Assembly (NCBI RefSeq): GCF_009363555.1
Contig: NZ_CP045372.1
Span: 3,049,501 to 3,113,500, forward strand
DNA from: Sulfitobacter sp. THAF37
GTDB lineage: Bacteria; Pseudomonadota; Alphaproteobacteria; Rhodobacterales; Rhodobacteraceae
Direction: 5' to 3'
Length of the DNA stretch: 64,000 bases
Every line of letters begins with the position of its first letter. Position 1 is the first letter of the stretch. Of this stretch, positions 25,736-46,000 are shown piece after piece. The notes below the pieces were generated by a model that was not told where the DNA came from, made no database searches, and worked only from the letters and a program-made list of their open reading frames with translations. Position numbers and translations under genes: made by a program.

Positions 25736-26167
25736 CTATTCGGCGGCATCCGGCATTTCGTCGGAAGGTCCGGTCTGCGGCGGGGATGATTGGCGCACCT
25801 TGGCAATCATGACGCGGCCGTTTGAAAACTGTTTTTCGCGGCGGACCTTGACCTTGCCAAGGTCCGGCAAGTTCAGCTCGCGGCTGTCCGCCAGCGCCTC
25901 ACCCAGGACGGCAAGCATGCTTTCGATAACCGGCTTGGCATCCCTTTTCTTGATGCCGGAACGCTTGACGACCTTGTCGATCAGTTCCTTCTTGCGCAGC
26001 TCGGGGCCAAGGATGACCGGCTGCGGCGATTTGACGACTGTCGGAGCTGGCGATGCGGCGGCGGCGGGCGCGTTGCCGTCAATCGCGGTGACCGGAGCGG
26101 GAGTGGATGATTTTGTTGCCACGGGGGTCTTTCTGGTCCTTGAGGACCTGGTTGATTTGGTTGCCAT
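25736..26167 (-). CDS. HU/IHF-family DNA-binding protein with a basic N-terminal tail
   Basis: A 143-residue protein. The first 60 residues are a low-complexity Lys/Arg/Ser/Thr then Ala/Pro-rich tail (MATKSTRSSRTRKTP), resembling histone H1-like tails. Residues 68-130 match the HU/IHF fold: RKKELIDKVVKRSGIKKRDA, a central helix ESMLAVLGEAL and LNLPDLGKVKVRREKQF. The usual DNA-inserting beta-arm with its Pro is shortened. The ATG at 26167 has GAGG 7 nt upstream. It likely compacts or shapes DNA. It stands alone after tRNA-Val. Confidence 0.8.
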   Translation of the reverse strand: MATKSTRSSRTRKTPVATKSSTPAPVTAIDGNAPAAAASPAPTVVKSPQPVILGPELRKKELIDKVVKRSGIKKRDAKPVIESMLAVLGEALADSRELNLPDLGKVKVRREKQFSNGRVMIAKVRQSSPPQTGPSDEMPDAAE

Positions 26168-39499: not shown

Positions 39500-40957
39500 C
39501 TAGTTCGTGATGATCTCCGGCCCCATCATCAGCGTCGGCAGCCAGGTGGAGATCACGGGCACATATGTCACCATGATCAGGAAGACAAAAAGCACGGCGG
39601 TAAAGGGCAGCGCCGCTCTGACCACCTTCATCATCGGCATGTTGGCCACCCCCGATGTCACAAAGAGGTTCAGGCCGACGGGCGGTGTGATCATCCCGAT
39701 TTCCATGTTGACGACCATGATGATGCCCAGGTGAATGGGGTCGATGCCCAGCTCGATCGCAATCGGGAACACCAGCGGTGCCACGATCACCAGCAGGCCC
39801 GACGGTTCCATGAACTGGCCGCCGATCAGCAGGATCACGTTGACGATGATCAGGAACATGATCGGCCCCAGCCCCGCGTCCAGCATGGCAGAGGAAATCT
39901 GCTGCGGGATCTGTTCGTCGGTCAGCACATGCTTGAGGATCAGCGCGTTTGCGATGATGAACATCAGCGTGACCGTCAGTTTCCCCGCATCGAACAGCGT
40001 GTCCCGGGTATCGGGGTGGAAAAAGCACGTCACCAGCGCCCAGGGCTTCTGCAGCAGCGTGCTCCGCCGCGCCGCCGGGACTTCGGCAGCGCCCATGCTG
40101 CGCGCGCCCGCAGGCGCATTAGCCAGGGCTTCGGGTGCCGTGTCGGCCTTCAGCGGACCGATGTCACGATAGATGAACATCGCCACGAGGAAGGCATAGA
40201 CGGACGCGACCGCCGCCGCCTCGGTTGGCGTGAATATCGCCCCGGTGACACCGGGCACACCGTAGATTCCGACCATGATGATGACGATCAGCATCAGACC
40301 CCAGAAGGCTTCGCGGAAACTGGTCCAGATCTCGCCCCAGCCCGCCCAGACGCCTTTCGGCATGTCGCGGATCACGGCCATGATGTAGATCGTGACCATC
40401 AGCATCACACCGGCAAGGATACCCGGAATGACGCCCGCCAGGAACATCCGGCCCACCGACACATCCGTGGCCGACGCATAGACCACCATCACGATCGAAG
40501 GCGGGATGAGAATGCCAAGCGTCCCCGCGTTGGCGATGACACCGGCGGCGAAATCCTTGGTGTAGCCCGCCTGACGCATTGCCGCGATCACGATGGACCC
40601 GATGGCCACCACCGTCGCGGGCGACGAGCCTGAAAGTGCCGCGAACATCATGCAGGCCAGAACCCCGGAAATCGCCAGACCGCCCCGCAGATGCCCCACA
40701 CAGGCGATGGAGAACCGGATGATCCGACGCGCCACCCCGCCCGTGGACATGAAGGAAGACGCGAGGATGAAGAACGGGATCGCCAGCAGCGTGTAATGCG
40801 CCGCCATCGCGCCGTAGAGGCTTTGCGCGATCGACGCCAGAGAGGTATCCGACAGCACCAGCAGGAACAGCATCGACGACAGGCCGAGCGATACCGCGAT
40901 CGGCACGCCGATCAACATCAGACCGACGACCATCAGGAAAAGAACAAGTACATCCAT
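39500..40957 (-). CDS. dctM: TRAP transporter large permease subunit
   Basis: A 485-residue inner-membrane protein of the DctM family with about 12-13 helices. Conserved segments include LIGVPIAVSLGLSSMLFL, ALSGSSPATVVAIGSI, NAGTLGILIPPSIVMVVYA and GMITPPVGLNLFVTSG. An insertion of about 70 residues near the centre (DIGPLKADTAPEALANAPAG) is cytoplasmic and longer than usual. It transports dicarboxylates with Na+ using the DctP-bound substrate. AAGG lies about 10 nt before the ATG. Last gene of dctP-dctQ-dctM. Confidence 0.93.
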   Translation of the reverse strand: MDVLVLFLMVVGLMLIGVPIAVSLGLSSMLFLLVLSDTSLASIAQSLYGAMAAHYTLLAIPFFILASSFMSTGGVARRIIRFSIACVGHLRGGLAISGVLACMMFAALSGSSPATVVAIGSIVIAAMRQAGYTKDFAAGVIANAGTLGILIPPSIVMVVYASATDVSVGRMFLAGVIPGILAGVMLMVTIYIMAVIRDMPKGVWAGWGEIWTSFREAFWGLMLIVIIMVGIYGVPGVTGAIFTPTEAAAVASVYAFLVAMFIYRDIGPLKADTAPEALANAPAGARSMGAAEVPAARRSTLLQKPWALVTCFFHPDTRDTLFDAGKLTVTLMFIIANALILKHVLTDEQIPQQISSAMLDAGLGPIMFLIIVNVILLIGGQFMEPSGLLVIVAPLVFPIAIELGIDPIHLGIIMVVNMEIGMITPPVGLNLFVTSGVANMPMMKVVRAALPFTAVLFVFLIMVTYVPVISTWLPTLMMGPEIITN

Positions 40958-40961
40958 CGGA

Positions 40962-41675
40962 TCAGACCTTTGCGTCTTCGGCGGCGGCCTTTTCGACCGC
41001 TTCCTCGGCTTCATGGCTCACGATCATGCTCTCGCGGCGGCCGGCAATCACCCCAAGCGTGGCCTGGACAAAGCGGAACAGCAGCAGCGCACAGCCAAGC
41101 GGCAGGATCACGTAAGGCACGAGGCGCGGCATCTTTTCATAAGGCTCTGTCACAAGCTGGTTTCCGTCCATGAAGGAATTGAAAGTATAGGCAAGCCAGT
41201 CGTTCATCCACTGGAACGGGATCGGTATCTGGTCGCTTTCGTAGAAGGACTGCGAACGACGCTCGACAAAACCGGTGGGAAACCAGCGCCCCTCGGTCGG
41301 GTTGAACCCGGCGAAAGGTGCCCAGAAATCCCACGCCCCCTTCATCATCAACACCGCGTAGAAGACGCAGATCAGCCCCGACAGGATCGCCAGCCATCGC
41401 TTCGGGCCGGTCGGCAGGACGCTGGTGACAGCATCGACGCCCAGATGCGCCGTGACCTTGACGCAATAGCTGATCCCGAACAGCACCAGCCATGCGAAAA
41501 GGACAAGCGTCAGTTCGAGCCCCCAGATCAGGGCGTGGTTGAACACGTATCGCAGCACCACGTTGACGAAGGTCACAAGAGTCATCAGACCCAGCAGCAC
41601 GGCAATGGCGGTTTCTTCGAATGTGTGGATAAAGCGGCCGAAGGCACCCTTCGGCTCGTATCTGCTGGCGCTCAT
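40962..41675 (-). CDS. dctQ: TRAP transporter small permease subunit
   Basis: A 237-residue protein with four helices: about 31-51, 61-82, 101-125 and 190-215. The region HALIWGLELTLVLFAWLVLFG matches DctQ. A soluble insert of about 60 residues between helices 3 and 4 makes it longer than the classic 160-residue form. GGAGG lies 6 nt before the ATG. It partners DctM. Confidence 0.9.
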   Translation of the reverse strand: MSASRYEPKGAFGRFIHTFEETAIAVLLGLMTLVTFVNVVLRYVFNHALIWGLELTLVLFAWLVLFGISYCVKVTAHLGVDAVTSVLPTGPKRWLAILSGLICVFYAVLMMKGAWDFWAPFAGFNPTEGRWFPTGFVERRSQSFYESDQIPIPFQWMNDWLAYTFNSFMDGNQLVTEPYEKMPRLVPYVILPLGCALLLFRFVQATLGVIAGRRESMIVSHEAEEAVEKAAAEDAKV

Positions 41676-41758
41676 GATCTTCCTCCCGTCACGCGCGGCA
41701 GGCACGGGCCGCCAGGTGGCGGCCCGGCCCCGGTATCGTCATCCTCGTTGCCGGAGGA

Positions 41759-42760
41759 TTACATGGAACCGTTGATTTCCTGCGCGGCTGCGATGTTGTC
41801 CGCGCCGACACCTTCCTCGAACTGTGACCAGACCGGCTTCATCGCGTCGACCCAGGCCTGGCGCTGCTCGGGGGTCAGTTCGCGGATCACGCCGCCGGCG
41901 TCCAGGATCGCCTGGCGGGCTTCCATGTCCACTTCGTTCACGGCCGCGTTCCGCTCTGCCGTCACCTCGTCCACGATGGTGGCCAGCTGGTCGCGGATTT
42001 CCGGATCCAGACCTTCCCACCAGTCGGAGCCGGTCACGACCAGGTAGTCGAGCACACCGTGGTTGGTTTCGGTGGAGCCATCCTGCACTTCAAAGAATTT
42101 CTGGCCGTAGATGTTGGACCAGGTGTTTTCCTGACCATCGACAACGCCGGTCTGCAGCGCGCCGTAGACTTCGGAAAAGGCCATCGGCTGCGGGCTGGCT
42201 TCCAGTTGCTCGAATTGCGCGACAATCACGTCAGAGGGCTGCACGCGGAATTTCAAGCCCTTGGCGTCACCTGGCATTTCCAGCGGCTTGTTCGCCGACA
42301 TCTGCTTCATGCCATTGTGCCAGAAACCCAGACCCTGAAGACCGCGGCGCTGCATCGAGTTCTTCAGCGCCTCGCCCTTCTCGCCCTGCTGGAACTTGTC
42401 CACGGCGTCGATGTTCACGAACATGAACGGCAGATCGAAAATCTGGAACTGCTTGGTGAAGGCCTCGAATTTCGACAGCGAAGGCGCGGCCATCTGCACG
42501 TCGCCCTGCAGCATCGCTTCGAGAACCTGGTCGTCGTCGTAAAGCGTGGAGTTCGGGAAAACCTCCATGCAGGCCTTGCCGTCCATCTCTTCGTTCACGC
42601 GTTTCTCAAGCAGCGACGCCGCAAGACCCTTGGGGTGCTTGTCGGTGTTGGTCACATGGCTGAACTTGATCACCATCTCGCCGTCATCGCAGGCAGCGGC
42701 AACGGCACCCGCGCTGACGGACATGGTCAGGGCAACGGTGGCGGCAGTAAAAAGCTTCAT
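41759..42760 (-). CDS. dctP: TRAP transporter dicarboxylate-binding protein
   Basis: A 333-residue periplasmic protein with a Sec signal peptide (MKLFTAATVALTMSVSAGAVAAA). The mature part shows the DctP pattern: VIKFSHVTNTDKHPKGLAA, the ligand Arg in LKFRVQPSDV, and the YGALQTGVVDGQENTWSNIY motif. It captures C4-dicarboxylates for DctQM. GGAGG precedes the ATG. It heads the operon, with candidate DctD boxes about 190-240 bp upstream. Confidence 0.93.
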   Translation of the reverse strand: MKLFTAATVALTMSVSAGAVAAACDDGEMVIKFSHVTNTDKHPKGLAASLLEKRVNEEMDGKACMEVFPNSTLYDDDQVLEAMLQGDVQMAAPSLSKFEAFTKQFQIFDLPFMFVNIDAVDKFQQGEKGEALKNSMQRRGLQGLGFWHNGMKQMSANKPLEMPGDAKGLKFRVQPSDVIVAQFEQLEASPQPMAFSEVYGALQTGVVDGQENTWSNIYGQKFFEVQDGSTETNHGVLDYLVVTGSDWWEGLDPEIRDQLATIVDEVTAERNAAVNEVDMEARQAILDAGGVIRELTPEQRQAWVDAMKPVWSQFEEGVGADNIAAAQEINGSM

Positions 42761-42950
42761 TATGGTCTCCTCCCAGAGCATTTGGAATCAGTCTGGCGCA
42801 CCCTTCGGAACGCGCTGGATCTAAGGAGCCATATTTGCGCTACCTTTCACAAGCGCGTGAAGCGCGGCGCTGCATTCCTTAAAAACTACTAACATTATCA
42901 ATGTACTATAGAAAAAACTTAAACGGAGAATTCGGCAGCAGACGCAATCA

Positions 42951-42968
42951 TGTGCGAATTCCCGCACA
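42951..42968 (-). promoter_or_regulatory. Candidate DctD box 1 upstream of dctP
   Basis: TGTGCGAATTCCCGCACA has perfect 6-bp arms (TGTGCG/CGCACA). It shares GTGCGRnTTyCCGCAC with the second box. Such GTGCG...CGCAC dyads are the kind of site DctD binds in rhizobia. Assignment is inferred from position. Confidence 0.6.
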
Positions 42969-42983
42969 GGGCTTTCGGCAGGC

Positions 42984-42999
42984 GTGCGGTTTTCCGCAC
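42984..42999 (-). promoter_or_regulatory. Candidate DctD box 2 upstream of dctP
   Basis: GTGCGGTTTTCCGCAC is a perfect 6-bp dyad with a 4-nt centre. Its centre lies 32 bp from that of box 1, about three helical turns, so dimers would bind the same DNA face. It ends 5 bp before the dctD stop. Confidence 0.6.
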
Positions 43000-43004
43000 A
43001 ACTC

Positions 43005-44234
43005 TCACGCCCGGAAATCTTCAGGCCGGATGCCGTACCGGGTCAGTTTGTCATAGAACGTCTTGCGCGGCAGCTTGAGCGCCTCCGCCGCGGCAGAGGC
43101 CCGCCCGTCCGAGCGTCGCAGCGCCGCCTCCAGCAGGGATTTCTCGACCCGGGCCATCTGTTCTGCCAACCCCAGCGAGGCGTCCGGTTCGATATCTTCG
43201 TTCAGCCCCAGTACGAAACGCATCGCCACCGACATCAGCGCCCGCGTATTGCCAGGCCAGTCGCGGCGCATCAGCGACGCCACCACATCGGGCGTGACCT
43301 CGCGCGCGCGCAGGCCCGACTGCTCTGCCGCCTGATCGACATAGCGGCGAAACATCACCGGAATGTCCTCGGGGCGCTCCGACAGGCTCGGGATGCGCAC
43401 GCTCAGCCCCTCCAGCCGCCAGTAGAGTTCGGCGTTGAAACGGCCAGCCTCCACCTCGGCGGCCAGATCACGTGTGTTGCCTGCAATCAGGCGCACCGAG
43501 CTCTGGCCTTCGGTCGTCTCACTCAGGATCAACTGGACCTGTCGCGGCAGTTGCGAGATTTCGTCCAGGAACAAACTGCCGCCATCTGCCTGTTTCAGGG
43601 TGTCCGGCAGGGTTTCAGGCGACAGACCCGAAGCCGCCTGTTTGACAAATGGCGCCTTGGAGCGCGCCGAACTCAGGTGCAGCACTTCGGCGATCTTGGA
43701 AATGCCGGTGCCGGGCGCGCCATTGATCAGCGTGTCGCCCTCCGTCTGCGCGACCAGCCGTACCCGCCGGCGCAGCCCGTCGGACAGTGCCGATGTGCCA
43801 AAGATCATCCGCGCCGCCGGATCGCCGGTTTCCATCATCTCGCGCAGGCGACGGTTTTCCAGCACCAGCGCGCGGGTCTTGAGCGCACGCTCCAGAACCG
43901 CCAGCAGGTCGGCGGGCGCACAGGGCTTTTCGAGAAAGCCAAAGGCGCCCTGCCCCATGGCGGCGACCGCCATCGGGATGTCCCCCTCGCCGGTCAGCAG
44001 GATCACCGGCAGGTCGGGGTCCTGCGCACGGGCATACTCCAGCAGATGGAAGCCGTCGCGCCCCGGCATCCGGATGTCCGACAGGATCACCCCGTCGAAC
44101 GACCGCGTGATCCTGTCCTTGGCCGCGACGAAGGACCCCGCCATCAACGCGCTGATCTGCGCAAGCTCCAGCGTCTGCGCCAGCGCCTCGCGCACCGCCG
44201 CGTCGTCGTCGACCAGAAGAACCTTTCCCTTCAT
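43005..44234 (-). CDS. dctD: DctD-type response regulator with degenerate AAA+ domain
   Basis: A 409-residue NtrC-architecture protein: receiver (phospho-acceptor Asp53 in LSDIRMPG, Lys103), AAA+ domain (about 145-330) and Fis-type HTH (LLEAALRRSDGRASAAAEAL). The AAA+ domain is abnormal. Walker A reads GAPGTGIS (172-179) instead of GxxGTGKE. The region that normally carries SELFGHEKGAFTGA is missing, the sequence passing from ASGLSPETLPDTLK straight to DGGSLFLDEI. Walker B and the DLYYRL-like segment (ELYWRL) remain. It cannot be a normal sigma-54 activator. It overlaps dctB by 4 bp and sits beside dctPQM. Confidence 0.88.
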   Translation of the reverse strand: MKGKVLLVDDDAAVREALAQTLELAQISALMAGSFVAAKDRITRSFDGVILSDIRMPGRDGFHLLEYARAQDPDLPVILLTGEGDIPMAVAAMGQGAFGFLEKPCAPADLLAVLERALKTRALVLENRRLREMMETGDPAARMIFGTSALSDGLRRRVRLVAQTEGDTLINGAPGTGISKIAEVLHLSSARSKAPFVKQAASGLSPETLPDTLKQADGGSLFLDEISQLPRQVQLILSETTEGQSSVRLIAGNTRDLAAEVEAGRFNAELYWRLEGLSVRIPSLSERPEDIPVMFRRYVDQAAEQSGLRAREVTPDVVASLMRRDWPGNTRALMSVAMRFVLGLNEDIEPDASLGLAEQMARVEKSLLEAALRRSDGRASAAAEALKLPRKTFYDKLTRYGIRPEDFRA

Positions 44235-46000
44235 ACTGCCGCCGCTTCCTTTGCATGCCGTTCCAGTGTCACGGTGAAGAGCGCACCGCCCGCATAATTG
44301 CTGCCCCGGATCTGCCCCCCGAAACTCTGCACGATGCCATAGCTGATCGACAGGCCAAGTCCCATCCCCGCCGTGGGACCCTCCGACTTCGTCGTATAGA
44401 ACGGGTCAAAAACCTTGTCCGGCATCTCGATTCCCGGCCCGGTATCGCGAAAGCTGACCGTGACGTCGTCGTCTTCGACCACCTCGATCTCCAACCGCTT
44501 TTCCGGCGTACCGGCCATCGCGTCCACCGCATTGGTGATCAGGTTGACAAAGACCTGGCTCAGCCGCACCTCGCCGCCGCGGACCCAGGTGGGGGCTTCA
44601 AGAACAGGATGCACCAGCGTCACGCCCGCGTCGTCCACATGGGCGCGGGTCAACTCAATTGCCCCCTCCAGCGCCTTGCGCAGGTCCACCGCGTCGTCGG
44701 TCTGCCGGTCCTGGCGGGCAAAAGCGCGCAGGTTCTGGATGATCCGCGCCATCCGTTGCGCCATTTCCGAAATCCGCGACAGATTCTCCTCCGCCCGCTC
44801 GGGGGCGCCGCGCGCCATGAATTGCCTGCCGTTCTCGGCAAAGGACCGGATCGCCATGAGAGGCTGGTTCAGCTCGTGGCTGATCCCGGCTGACATCTGC
44901 CCCAGCGCACTCAGCTTGCCCGCCTGAACCAGCTCGTCCTGTGCACGGCGCAATGCCGCCTGCGCCTCCTCGCGGTCCGCCGCCTCCGCCAGAAGCCGAC
45001 GGTTGGTGTCGCGCAGGGCATGGGTCCGCTCCGCCACGCGGTCTTCCAGCCGGGCATTGGCACTGGCCAGGGCGCGCCGCCGTTCGGCCGCCAGGAACAG
45101 CAGCGACCCGAAGGCGAGGCACAGCGCCGCCACCGCGCCCGCCTGCGCCGTCGCCAGCCGACGTGCCTGCGCGGTGTCCAGCAACACCTCGCCCGTCATG
45201 CCGATCACCGGCAACGCCTGAGTAAGGTGCAGCGCCGACCGGGGCAGATAGGGGCCCCAGTCCAGCCCCCAGATCTCGTGCCCCGCCACCAGGCGCGCCT
45301 CGAAGGGCGGCGCGGGGCCCACGGGTGGCTCCAGGCCCGGCGACCCCTGCGGCCTGCGCCAGAACAGCAATTCCGACCGGTTCGCAATCAGGACTTCACC
45401 ACCGCTGTCGGTAAAAAAGGCCGCCGGCGTGCTGCCGCGCCAGTTGTAGTCGATGCCACTGAGGTCCGTCACCACGGCCACCACACCCTGGACCCGGCCA
45501 GAGGGGCCAAAAACCGGTGCCGCGTGAAAGAATGCCCGCGCGGTCAGCGGCTCCGCCCCTCCGTGCCCCCATCCCAGGGCCCCCCGCATCGCCCGCCGTA
45601 CAAAGGGCTGCCCGGCCAGCCGGTCCGGCGCCGCCCGCCCCAGGGCAGAGGCGCGCAACCGTCCCGCCGCGTCGACAACCAGCACGTCCAGCGCGGCGGT
45701 CTTGTCCGCGACCTCCAGCAGCAGCGCGCCGATGTCACCCGCGCCGCCCCCCTCCAGCACCGCCAGAACCTCCGGGTGGTCCGCCATCAGCACCGCCAGA
45801 TCCCGGTACCGCTGCAACTGCCCGACCAGCCGGTCCCCGGCCAGGGCCAGGTCCGCGCGGCCCCGCTCGGCCAACAGGTCCAACCCCTGCGCGTGGAAAT
45901 AGCGCCAGACACCAGCCGTCAAAGCGGCCACCACCGCGAGAAAGGCCAGCATCACCGTCGCTCTTTGCCGTATTCCGCTCATCATACCGTCAGATTGCAC
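44231..46000 (-). CDS. dctB: DctB-type sensor histidine kinase
   Basis: A 589-residue inner-membrane kinase. Membrane helices lie at about residues 13-32 and 267-287, enclosing a large periplasmic sensor with a tandem-PAS (sCache) pattern (RYRDLAVLMADHPEVLAVL, FVRRAMRGALG, TDLSGIDYNWRG). Then come a coiled coil, the H-box LSALGQMSAGISHELNQPLM, and ATPase boxes (NLITNAVDAM, DTGPGI, GMGLGLSI). It senses dicarboxylates and phosphorylates DctD. The GTG at 46000 is taken as start because AAGG lies 6-7 nt upstream; ATG codons five and six triplets later are alternatives. The stop overlaps dctD (ATGA). Confidence 0.9.
   Translation of the reverse strand: MQSDGMMSGIRQRATVMLAFLAVVAALTAGVWRYFHAQGLDLLAERGRADLALAGDRLVGQLQRYRDLAVLMADHPEVLAVLEGGGAGDIGALLLEVADKTAALDVLVVDAAGRLRASALGRAAPDRLAGQPFVRRAMRGALGWGHGGAEPLTARAFFHAAPVFGPSGRVQGVVAVVTDLSGIDYNWRGSTPAAFFTDSGGEVLIANRSELLFWRRPQGSPGLEPPVGPAPPFEARLVAGHEIWGLDWGPYLPRSALHLTQALPVIGMTGEVLLDTAQARRLATAQAGAVAALCLAFGSLLFLAAERRRALASANARLEDRVAERTHALRDTNRRLLAEAADREEAQAALRRAQDELVQAGKLSALGQMSAGISHELNQPLMAIRSFAENGRQFMARGAPERAEENLSRISEMAQRMARIIQNLRAFARQDRQTDDAVDLRKALEGAIELTRAHVDDAGVTLVHPVLEAPTWVRGGEVRLSQVFVNLITNAVDAMAGTPEKRLEIEVVEDDDVTVSFRDTGPGIEMPDKVFDPFYTTKSEGPTAGMGLGLSISYGIVQSFGGQIRGSNYAGGALFTVTLERHAKEAAAV

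Follow-up and report, generated by a model that had tools for sequence, protein, structure and literature searches.

The DctD response regulator of Sulfitobacter sp. THAF37 lacks the GAFTGA loop, the Walker A lysine and the first arginine finger. These losses are clade-wide, and they go together with a fixed spacing of the elements upstream of dctP. Comparing the locus with its relatives, we consider it fairly probable that phosphorylated DctD, bound to paired enhancer boxes, reaches a dctPQM promoter of the sigma-70 type by a DNA loop that IHF assists, and that it works there without hydrolysing ATP and probably without needing ATP at all. DctD would be a pseudo-ATPase descendant of a sigma-54 activator.

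We studied the locus within a window of 64,000 nucleotides from contig NZ_CP045372.1. The genes run in the order dctB-dctD-dctP-dctQ-dctM, all on the minus strand, with dctD between dctB and dctP (Table 1). Among the named relatives, 73 of 80 carry the five dct genes in the same order and on the same strand, and the other seven have a partial set. dctP lies downstream of dctD on the same strand, at a distance of no more than 700 bp, in 86 of 101 loci; it is elsewhere in seven and was not found in eight. The closest named DctD match is that of Sulfitobacter sp. EhC04 (92% identical). Searching a plasmid collection, we found no close copy of dctD: 380 records gave a match, and the best place stayed below 60% identity in all of them. 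A cytochrome P450 gene (46045-47223 of the window) is divergent from dctB.

Table 1 Features of the dct locus, with positions in the window
Feature	Position	Strand	Remarks
dctM, TRAP large permease	39500..41014	-	
dctQ, TRAP small permease	40962..41705	-	
dctP, TRAP solute-binding protein	41759..42760	-	GGGAGGAG precedes the ATG
Predicted -10 region GGCTCCT	42824..42830	-	weak match; 17 bp after the -35 block
Predicted -35 element CTTGTGA	42847..42853	-	first T of TTG 107 bp from the box 2 centre
Predicted IHF-like site TAGTACATTGATA	42896..42908	-	8/9 match; centre 57 bp from box 2
Predicted DctD-type box 2 (proximal)	42951..42968	-	TGTGCGGGAATTCGCACA on the dctP strand; dyad TGTGCGAATTCCCGCACA
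Predicted DctD-type box 1 (distal)	42983..43000	-	TGTGCGGAAAACCGCACG on the dctP strand; dyad 42984-42999, GTGCGGTTTTCCGCAC
dctD, 409 aa response regulator (receiver, AAA+, Fis-type HTH)	43005..44234	-	without Walker A lysine, without GAFTGA
Fis-type HTH (PF02954)	43035..43157	-	residues 360-400
Walker B LFLDE, kept	43560..43574	-	residues 221-225
GAFTGA-deleted segment	43578..43649	-	residues 196-219; 19 residues short of the syntenic canonical DctD of genome G065
Degenerate Walker A GAPGTGISK	43695..43721	-	residues 172-180; I178 in the place of the lysine
Asp53 codon, predicted phospho-acceptor	44076..44078	-	138/138 genomes
dctB, sensor histidine kinase	44231..46000	-	4-base overlap with dctD

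DctD has the domain order of a group I enhancer-binding protein, and its Pfam matches above the cut-off are PF00072 (receiver), PF14532/PF00158 (AAA+), PF25601 (lid) and PF02954 (Fis-type HTH). Its Walker A motif is GAPGTGISK, against GETGTGKE in the canonical relatives, and the stretch from residue 196 to 219 holds 24 amino acids, against 43 in the GAFTGA-bearing syntenic DctD of G065. The first-pass annotation had read the Walker A motif as GAPGTGIS with its lysine lost, had noted that some 20 residues with GAFTGA are missing, and had found the receiver, the Walker B motif and the Fis-type HTH retained. We confirm these points, the deletion being 19 residues against G065, and the retained parts being borne out by the Pfam matches and by LFLDE. 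We add one loss that the annotation did not hold: the first arginine finger is also gone, FR having become FN at residue 267. The sensor I region is altered too. A predicted model of DctD (mean pLDDT 85.5, pTM 0.51) matches structures of NtrX, NtrC1, ZraR, PspF, FleQ and VpsR, with a query TM-score of about 0.45 over the full length and a target TM-score of about 0.7 for chains of the AAA+ domain. The model thus points to a kept AAA+ fold, and its TM-scores leave the domain arrangement unsettled. Among the NCBIfam profiles without the GAFTGA gap, PgtA was the best full-length one for DctD, scoring 257 bits against a cut-off of 650.

Searching the genome with models of three RpoN domains, we obtained no match, and each model matches in 4 of 14 control genomes, including E. 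coli and Caulobacter. A convincing RpoN match was also absent from 62 genomes of the genus. There, the DNA-binding domain model gave only five weak partial matches; the best of them had 23 bits and an internal stop, and one of the five lay just over the cut-off. PF00158 gave twelve places in the genome, among them six NtrC-type proteins and four weak matches (L009 and L010, read as Clp-type, and L011 and L012). Besides the DctD of the window, the NtrC-type proteins, named by resemblance, are L001 (DctD-like), L002 (NtrX-like), L003 (second DctD-like), L004 (NtrC-like) and L005 (AcoR-like). The Walker A lysine is kept in all these five, and GAFTGA is present in none. L003 (G000:C1) is part of a second DctB/DctD-like pair, about 50 kb from the locus and 7 kb beyond the window, with GETGTGKT intact and GAFTGA missing. 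A second intact DctD elsewhere in the genome, which the first-pass annotation had named as an outcome that would speak against its reading, was not found, L003 and L001 both being without GAFTGA. The sigma-54 route appears to be closed in this genome, because neither RpoN nor an intact second DctD was found in it.

We extended the comparison to 296 Rhodobacteraceae genomes of 295 genera, each at least 90% complete, using a profile of 27 DctDs and aligning the loci of the best-scoring clade. The main form of DctD was defined as loci with at least 520 bits to a profile of lysine-less sequences; the census covered matches of about 338 bits or more, and a partial lysine-less copy in G132 was excluded from the main-form count. 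The main form is found in 138 of the 296 genomes, that is in 137 genera (G000 and G030 belong to the same genus). All 138 have 24 amino acids in place of 43 at the GAFTGA segment. None has the Walker A lysine, a count to be read with the definition of the main form, as membership and lysine loss are not fully independent. The lysine is replaced by I (69), T (44), V (17), L (3), N (3), S (1) or M (1), and in the 80 named loci by I (70), V (7) or T (3). The first arginine finger is absent from all 138 as well, while at the position of the second one 113 have R and 22 have K. The Walker B Asp is present in 132 and the Glu in 119, and Asp53, Lys103 and Asp10 of the receiver are present in every one.

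The relatives of this form that occupy the same gene neighbourhood make up a ladder. G065 has a complete DctD, with GETGTGKE and GAFTGA. In G112, G292 and G243, 9 residues including GAFTGA are lost, and both Walker motifs and both arginines are kept. In four genera, represented by G156, G211, G171 and G169 (L161, L163, L164 and L165), 19 residues are missing and the Walker A lysine is kept, and Walker B, both arginines and sensor II are lost. In the main clade, the 19 residues are missing together with the Walker A lysine, and so is the first arginine finger. When the Walker A and the loop/Walker B columns are excluded, these forms nest in ladder order in a tree, with SH-aLRT values of 98, 96, 96, 96 and 95. 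The tree was computed by a quick method, its outgroup branch is long, and it includes the arginine-finger columns. A single branch sets off the main form, another sets off the Walker B-less form, and the three intermediates diverge one after the other rather than as one group. Because the forms nest in this way, GAFTGA appears to have been lost first and catalysis later, via two different routes. In the Walker B-less sister clade, dctP is oriented away from dctBD, and the spacing of the best box pairs is irregular (25-41 bp). The DctD-like proteins L166, L167, L168, L296 and L297 have GAFPGA or GAYPGA instead of GAFTGA. L296 and L297, which have dctP adjoining, show no upstream sigma-54 site of at least 18 points in our scoring, and another independent departure from sigma-54 is possible there.

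By another explanation, DctD would not be independent of ATP in the cell. It could use another ligand at the altered P-loop through K180, or assemble into mixed oligomers together with an ATPase-competent member of its family, for instance L003, in both cases at a sigma-70 promoter. Two residues beyond the lost lysine, the equivalent of K180 persists in 136 of the 138 genomes, the L003 and L001 proteins of the same genome retain their Walker A lysine, and NtrC of R. capsulatus is described as needing ATP binding (PMC10274813). We think this explanation unlikely, since the first arginine finger is lost in all 138 genomes along with the lysine, since the sensor I region is altered, and since in the sister clade it is Walker B, sensor II and the arginine fingers that were lost instead, a pattern in favour of a lower demand for catalysis. 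K180 itself might still serve a ligand, ATP or another nucleotide.

Upstream of dctP, the first-pass annotation had seen two near-perfect dyads with centres 32 bp apart, and both were recovered, at 42951-42968 and 42984-42999. The best box pair scores 20-28 in 93 loci including the window, and 465 single-base shuffles reach at most 19. With the duplicate removed, a pair of at least 20 of 28 points was present upstream of dctP in 119 of 120 scanned main-form loci. Its spacing is 33 bp in 71 of these 119 loci, 32 bp in 41, 34 bp in 5 and another value in 2, so that 117 fall within 32-34 bp. Box-like sites with at most one mismatch number 13 in the genome, both boxes included, against 10 for a reversed control pattern. 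We find no sign of a wider DctD regulon in the whole genome, where no other two of the 13 sites lie within 100 bp of each other.

That annotation had also reported no GG-N10-GC pair on the dctP strand between 42761 and 42950. The pair is absent there, which is weak evidence alone, since 43% of shuffles are also without one; the absence of a sigma-54 promoter becomes a strong result because the RpoN domain models match nothing in the genome and no site above the threshold was found in the rows of the same form. Scoring sigma-54 sites with weights set by the author, and with a threshold of 18 out of 20.1 points chosen after the first scores were known, we found a site upstream of dctP in 0 of 121 main-form rows (120 distinct, the window being counted twice), in 0 of 3 GAFTGA-less intermediates and in 0 of 4 Walker B-less loci. 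Such a site is present in 6 of 9 canonical-class loci, namely in all six with a true GAFTGA; of the other three, two have GAFPGA and in one no GAFTGA was found. The site of G065, TGGCATGGATTCTGCA, lies 60 bp from box 2. The upstream scan dropped rows without a usable dctD, dctP or start (19 main-form, 21 canonical and 4 other), and among the dropped ones is L287, which has GAFTGA and a sigma-54 site of 18.7 in its flank. By these comparisons, DctD would be a member of the sigma-54 family by descent and not in function, as it fails on GAFTGA, on the ATPase residues, on RpoN and on the promoter.

A promoter-like element of another type was found at a conserved distance from the boxes. The two-block fit upstream of dctP in the main form gave xCTTGAG-N17-(G/C)TTTnCT. 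Its log-likelihood is 67.9, against -128.8 to -143.0 in four shuffled sets, with the duplicate dropped and 30 restarts on both sides. With the window counted twice, the value was 92.1 (30 restarts), against -126 to -136 for the shuffled sets (10 restarts). The distance from box 2 to the -35 element is 104-110 bp in 84 of 119 loci, compared with 4.8% of shuffles, and in the other 35 loci the best -35 element is elsewhere. In the 84 loci, the -35 element is at a variable distance from the start codon (standard deviation 10 bp). Scoring IHF-like sites against the IHF consensus, we found that 90 of 120 rows have a site with at least 7 of 9 matches inside a stretch of 34 bases, compared with 21% of shuffles, and 70 of these 90 sites are at +56 to +58. 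Among the 13 loci with the -35 element at 93-98 bp, the IHF-like site is at 45-48 bp in nine, likewise a turn closer; in the remaining four, it is at 35 bp in one and unmoved at 57-61 bp in three. Both distance classes, 104-110 and 93-98 bp, were defined after the distances were known, and the split-half test used sites fitted on all loci. The sigma-54 scan, the first motif fit, the IHF-like counts and the 13-locus comparison count the window twice (as itself and as L136) and include G132; the identities, the distances and the final fit are without the duplicate.

Pairwise identity over the 84 loci of the 104-110 bp class, where the motif columns were chosen by search, is 0.86 and 0.72 for the boxes, 0.71 for the -35 zone, 0.40 for the IHF zone, 0.41 for the -10 zone and 0.27-0.32 between the elements. 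The stretches between the elements are thus near random, and the IHF and -10 zones are mildly above this level. The -10 element is weak across the loci and weakest in the window itself. In the 19 loci outside the main -35 cluster, the position of the element has a mean resultant of 0.54 at 10.5 bp and is in register with the cluster, a result that we take as a hint of helical phasing because the loci share ancestry. The genome has three full-length genes of the HU/IHF family, and a minus-strand frame of 155 aa holds a partial HU/IHF-family domain (25829-25996 of the window; G000:C1:3075329-3075496). The first-pass annotation had suggested a DctD that works with sigma-70 RNA polymerase, and the finding of a -35/-10-like element whose distance to the boxes is fixed lends support to this suggestion. 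The comparison suggests a dctP promoter of the sigma-70 type, as a prediction.

This geometry also bears on the direction of control. Instead of activating dctP, DctD could repress it or regulate it in both directions, as GAFTGA-less relatives can repress, which is described for Caulobacter NtrC at some sites (PMC10274813). We regard this as quite improbable, because the boxes lie about 107 and about 140 bp upstream of the predicted -35 element and not over the promoter, and because mutants of a TRAP regulator and of the TRAP transporter of R. pomeroyi are alike in losing fitness (PMC10041152), if, as we infer, the locus is the same. In the mixed cultures described in that paper, fitness of Ruegeria pomeroyi was lower for mutants in dctM SPO2626 and dctQ SPO2627 (each in two of three treatments) and in the regulator SPO2630 (in one of three); from their gene numbers, the three appear to belong to the same locus as the dct genes of the window, and in that case the mutants lend outside support to our main account as well.

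Decay of dctD, with the boxes as leftovers, is rejected on dN/dS and the census and is very hard to credit: catalytic residues are lost and 2 of 138 copies carry an in-frame stop (L227 in G252 and L235 in G069), but the median dN/dS of dctD is 0.155 over 30 genomes of the genus (305 of 435 pairs, those within a dS range of 0.15-1.5), with 0.093 for the receiver, 0.192 for AAA+ and 0.103 for the HTH, the receiver residues are invariant, and boxes and spacing are kept across genera while identity between the elements is at the low level given above. The first-pass annotation had seen a test of its reading in whether homologues share the losses under purifying selection, or whether close relatives show a decayed copy; the former proved to be the case, in all 138 genomes and at this dN/dS, and the latter did not.

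It is just as improbable that sigma-54 is still used in the relatives that keep RpoN, the change being limited to those without it. A strong RpoN match (E of 8.7e-20 or better) is present in 93 of the 296 genomes, with weak partial matches in 9 more, and RpoN is present in 31 of the 138 main-form genomes. Those 31 are likewise without GAFTGA, the Walker A lysine and the first arginine finger, and no sigma-54 site of at least 18 points was found upstream of dctP in the 26 of them that could be scanned, the other 5 being unscannable. The change in DctD is independent of RpoN loss, because 31 of the 138 genomes have RpoN.

NtrC-type regulators that lack GAFTGA and act at sigma-70 promoters are already known, and DctD resembles them in lacking GAFTGA and keeping the receiver and the HTH. 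The account in PMC10274813 describes R. capsulatus NtrC, Caulobacter NtrC and Vibrio cholerae VpsR, which differ in their need of ATP: binding for the first, binding and hydrolysis for the second, and none for VpsR. In PMC3162934, loss of GAFTGA is treated as a sign of sigma-54 non-use, and Jannaschia is named there as having a putative activator and no sigma-54. Like DctD, R. capsulatus NtrC is an NtrC-type protein of the Rhodobacterales with the GAFTGA loop deleted, and it is reported as a sigma-70 activator; DctD, unlike it, is without the Walker A lysine and the first arginine finger, whereas R. capsulatus NtrC is described as depending on ATP binding (PMC10274813). The NtrC-like L004 of our genome also lacks the loop, as R. 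capsulatus NtrC does, and keeps GTGKS. VpsR is NtrC-like and has no GAFTGA, acts at sigma-70 promoters without ATP (PMC10274813), and is among the fold matches of the DctD model. By the same account, it senses c-di-GMP and phosphate and does not require phosphorylation, whereas DctD has a complete receiver, an adjoining kinase gene and paired distant boxes. Caulobacter NtrC is likewise alphaproteobacterial, GAFTGA-less and active at sigma-70 promoters; it is described with an eight-residue deletion and a need of ATP binding and hydrolysis (PMC10274813), whereas DctD has lost 19 residues and the Walker A lysine.

The canonical DctDs that adjoin TRAP genes (L162 of G065 and, in other alphaproteobacteria, L281, L282, L285, L286 and L298) share these neighbours with the DctD of the window, and L162 has all five genes. 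L162 and L282 have the same type of box at the same 32 bp spacing as the window. Unlike the DctD of the window, these canonical DctDs keep GAFTGA and have a strong sigma-54 site upstream of dctP (18.4-19.4 of 20.1). The Walker A lysine was seen in L162, L281, L282, L285 and L298, and the pattern did not find it in L286. A literature search, which covered titles and abstract openings and had most subscription journals outside its scope, found no published account of a DctD without both the lysine and GAFTGA. The new parts of our analysis are the clade-wide conservation, the ladder, the conserved geometry of the sigma-70 type and the independence from RpoN loss.

Taken together, we propose the following course of events for dctPQM activation. 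DctB would phosphorylate Asp53. DctD elsewhere binds to paired palindromes, and, judging from this and from the two dyads, phospho-DctD would bind two palindromes three helical turns apart. A bend of the IHF type about halfway would then bring it to RNA polymerase carrying the housekeeping sigma factor, at a promoter with its -35 element 107 bp downstream of box 2, and the contact with DctD would switch on dctPQM. Given the lost residues, this would happen without ATP hydrolysis and probably without ATP binding. The first-pass annotation seems correct in its facts and, to the extent that comparison can tell, in the mechanism it suggested. The wider account is, in our judgement, evenly poised: ATP-free activation by enhancer and loop at a sigma-70 promoter, reached by a stepwise conversion in place that kept the boxes, the IHF-type bend and the helical phase while the class of the promoter changed, with the ATPase dismantled in two sister lineages by way of different catalytic residues, those of Walker A in one and those of Walker B in its sister.

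Many of the best 120 homologues listed are labelled 'sigma-54 dependent transcriptional regulator', which is probably wrong in mechanism for this clade. The role of an AAA+ domain in transcription, once it is unable to hydrolyse ATP and probably unable to bind it, is a long-standing question that becomes testable here. The forms of DctD would offer a series of living intermediates between an ATP-driven sigma-54 enhancer system and a sigma-70 one, in a transport operon of many marine bacteria.
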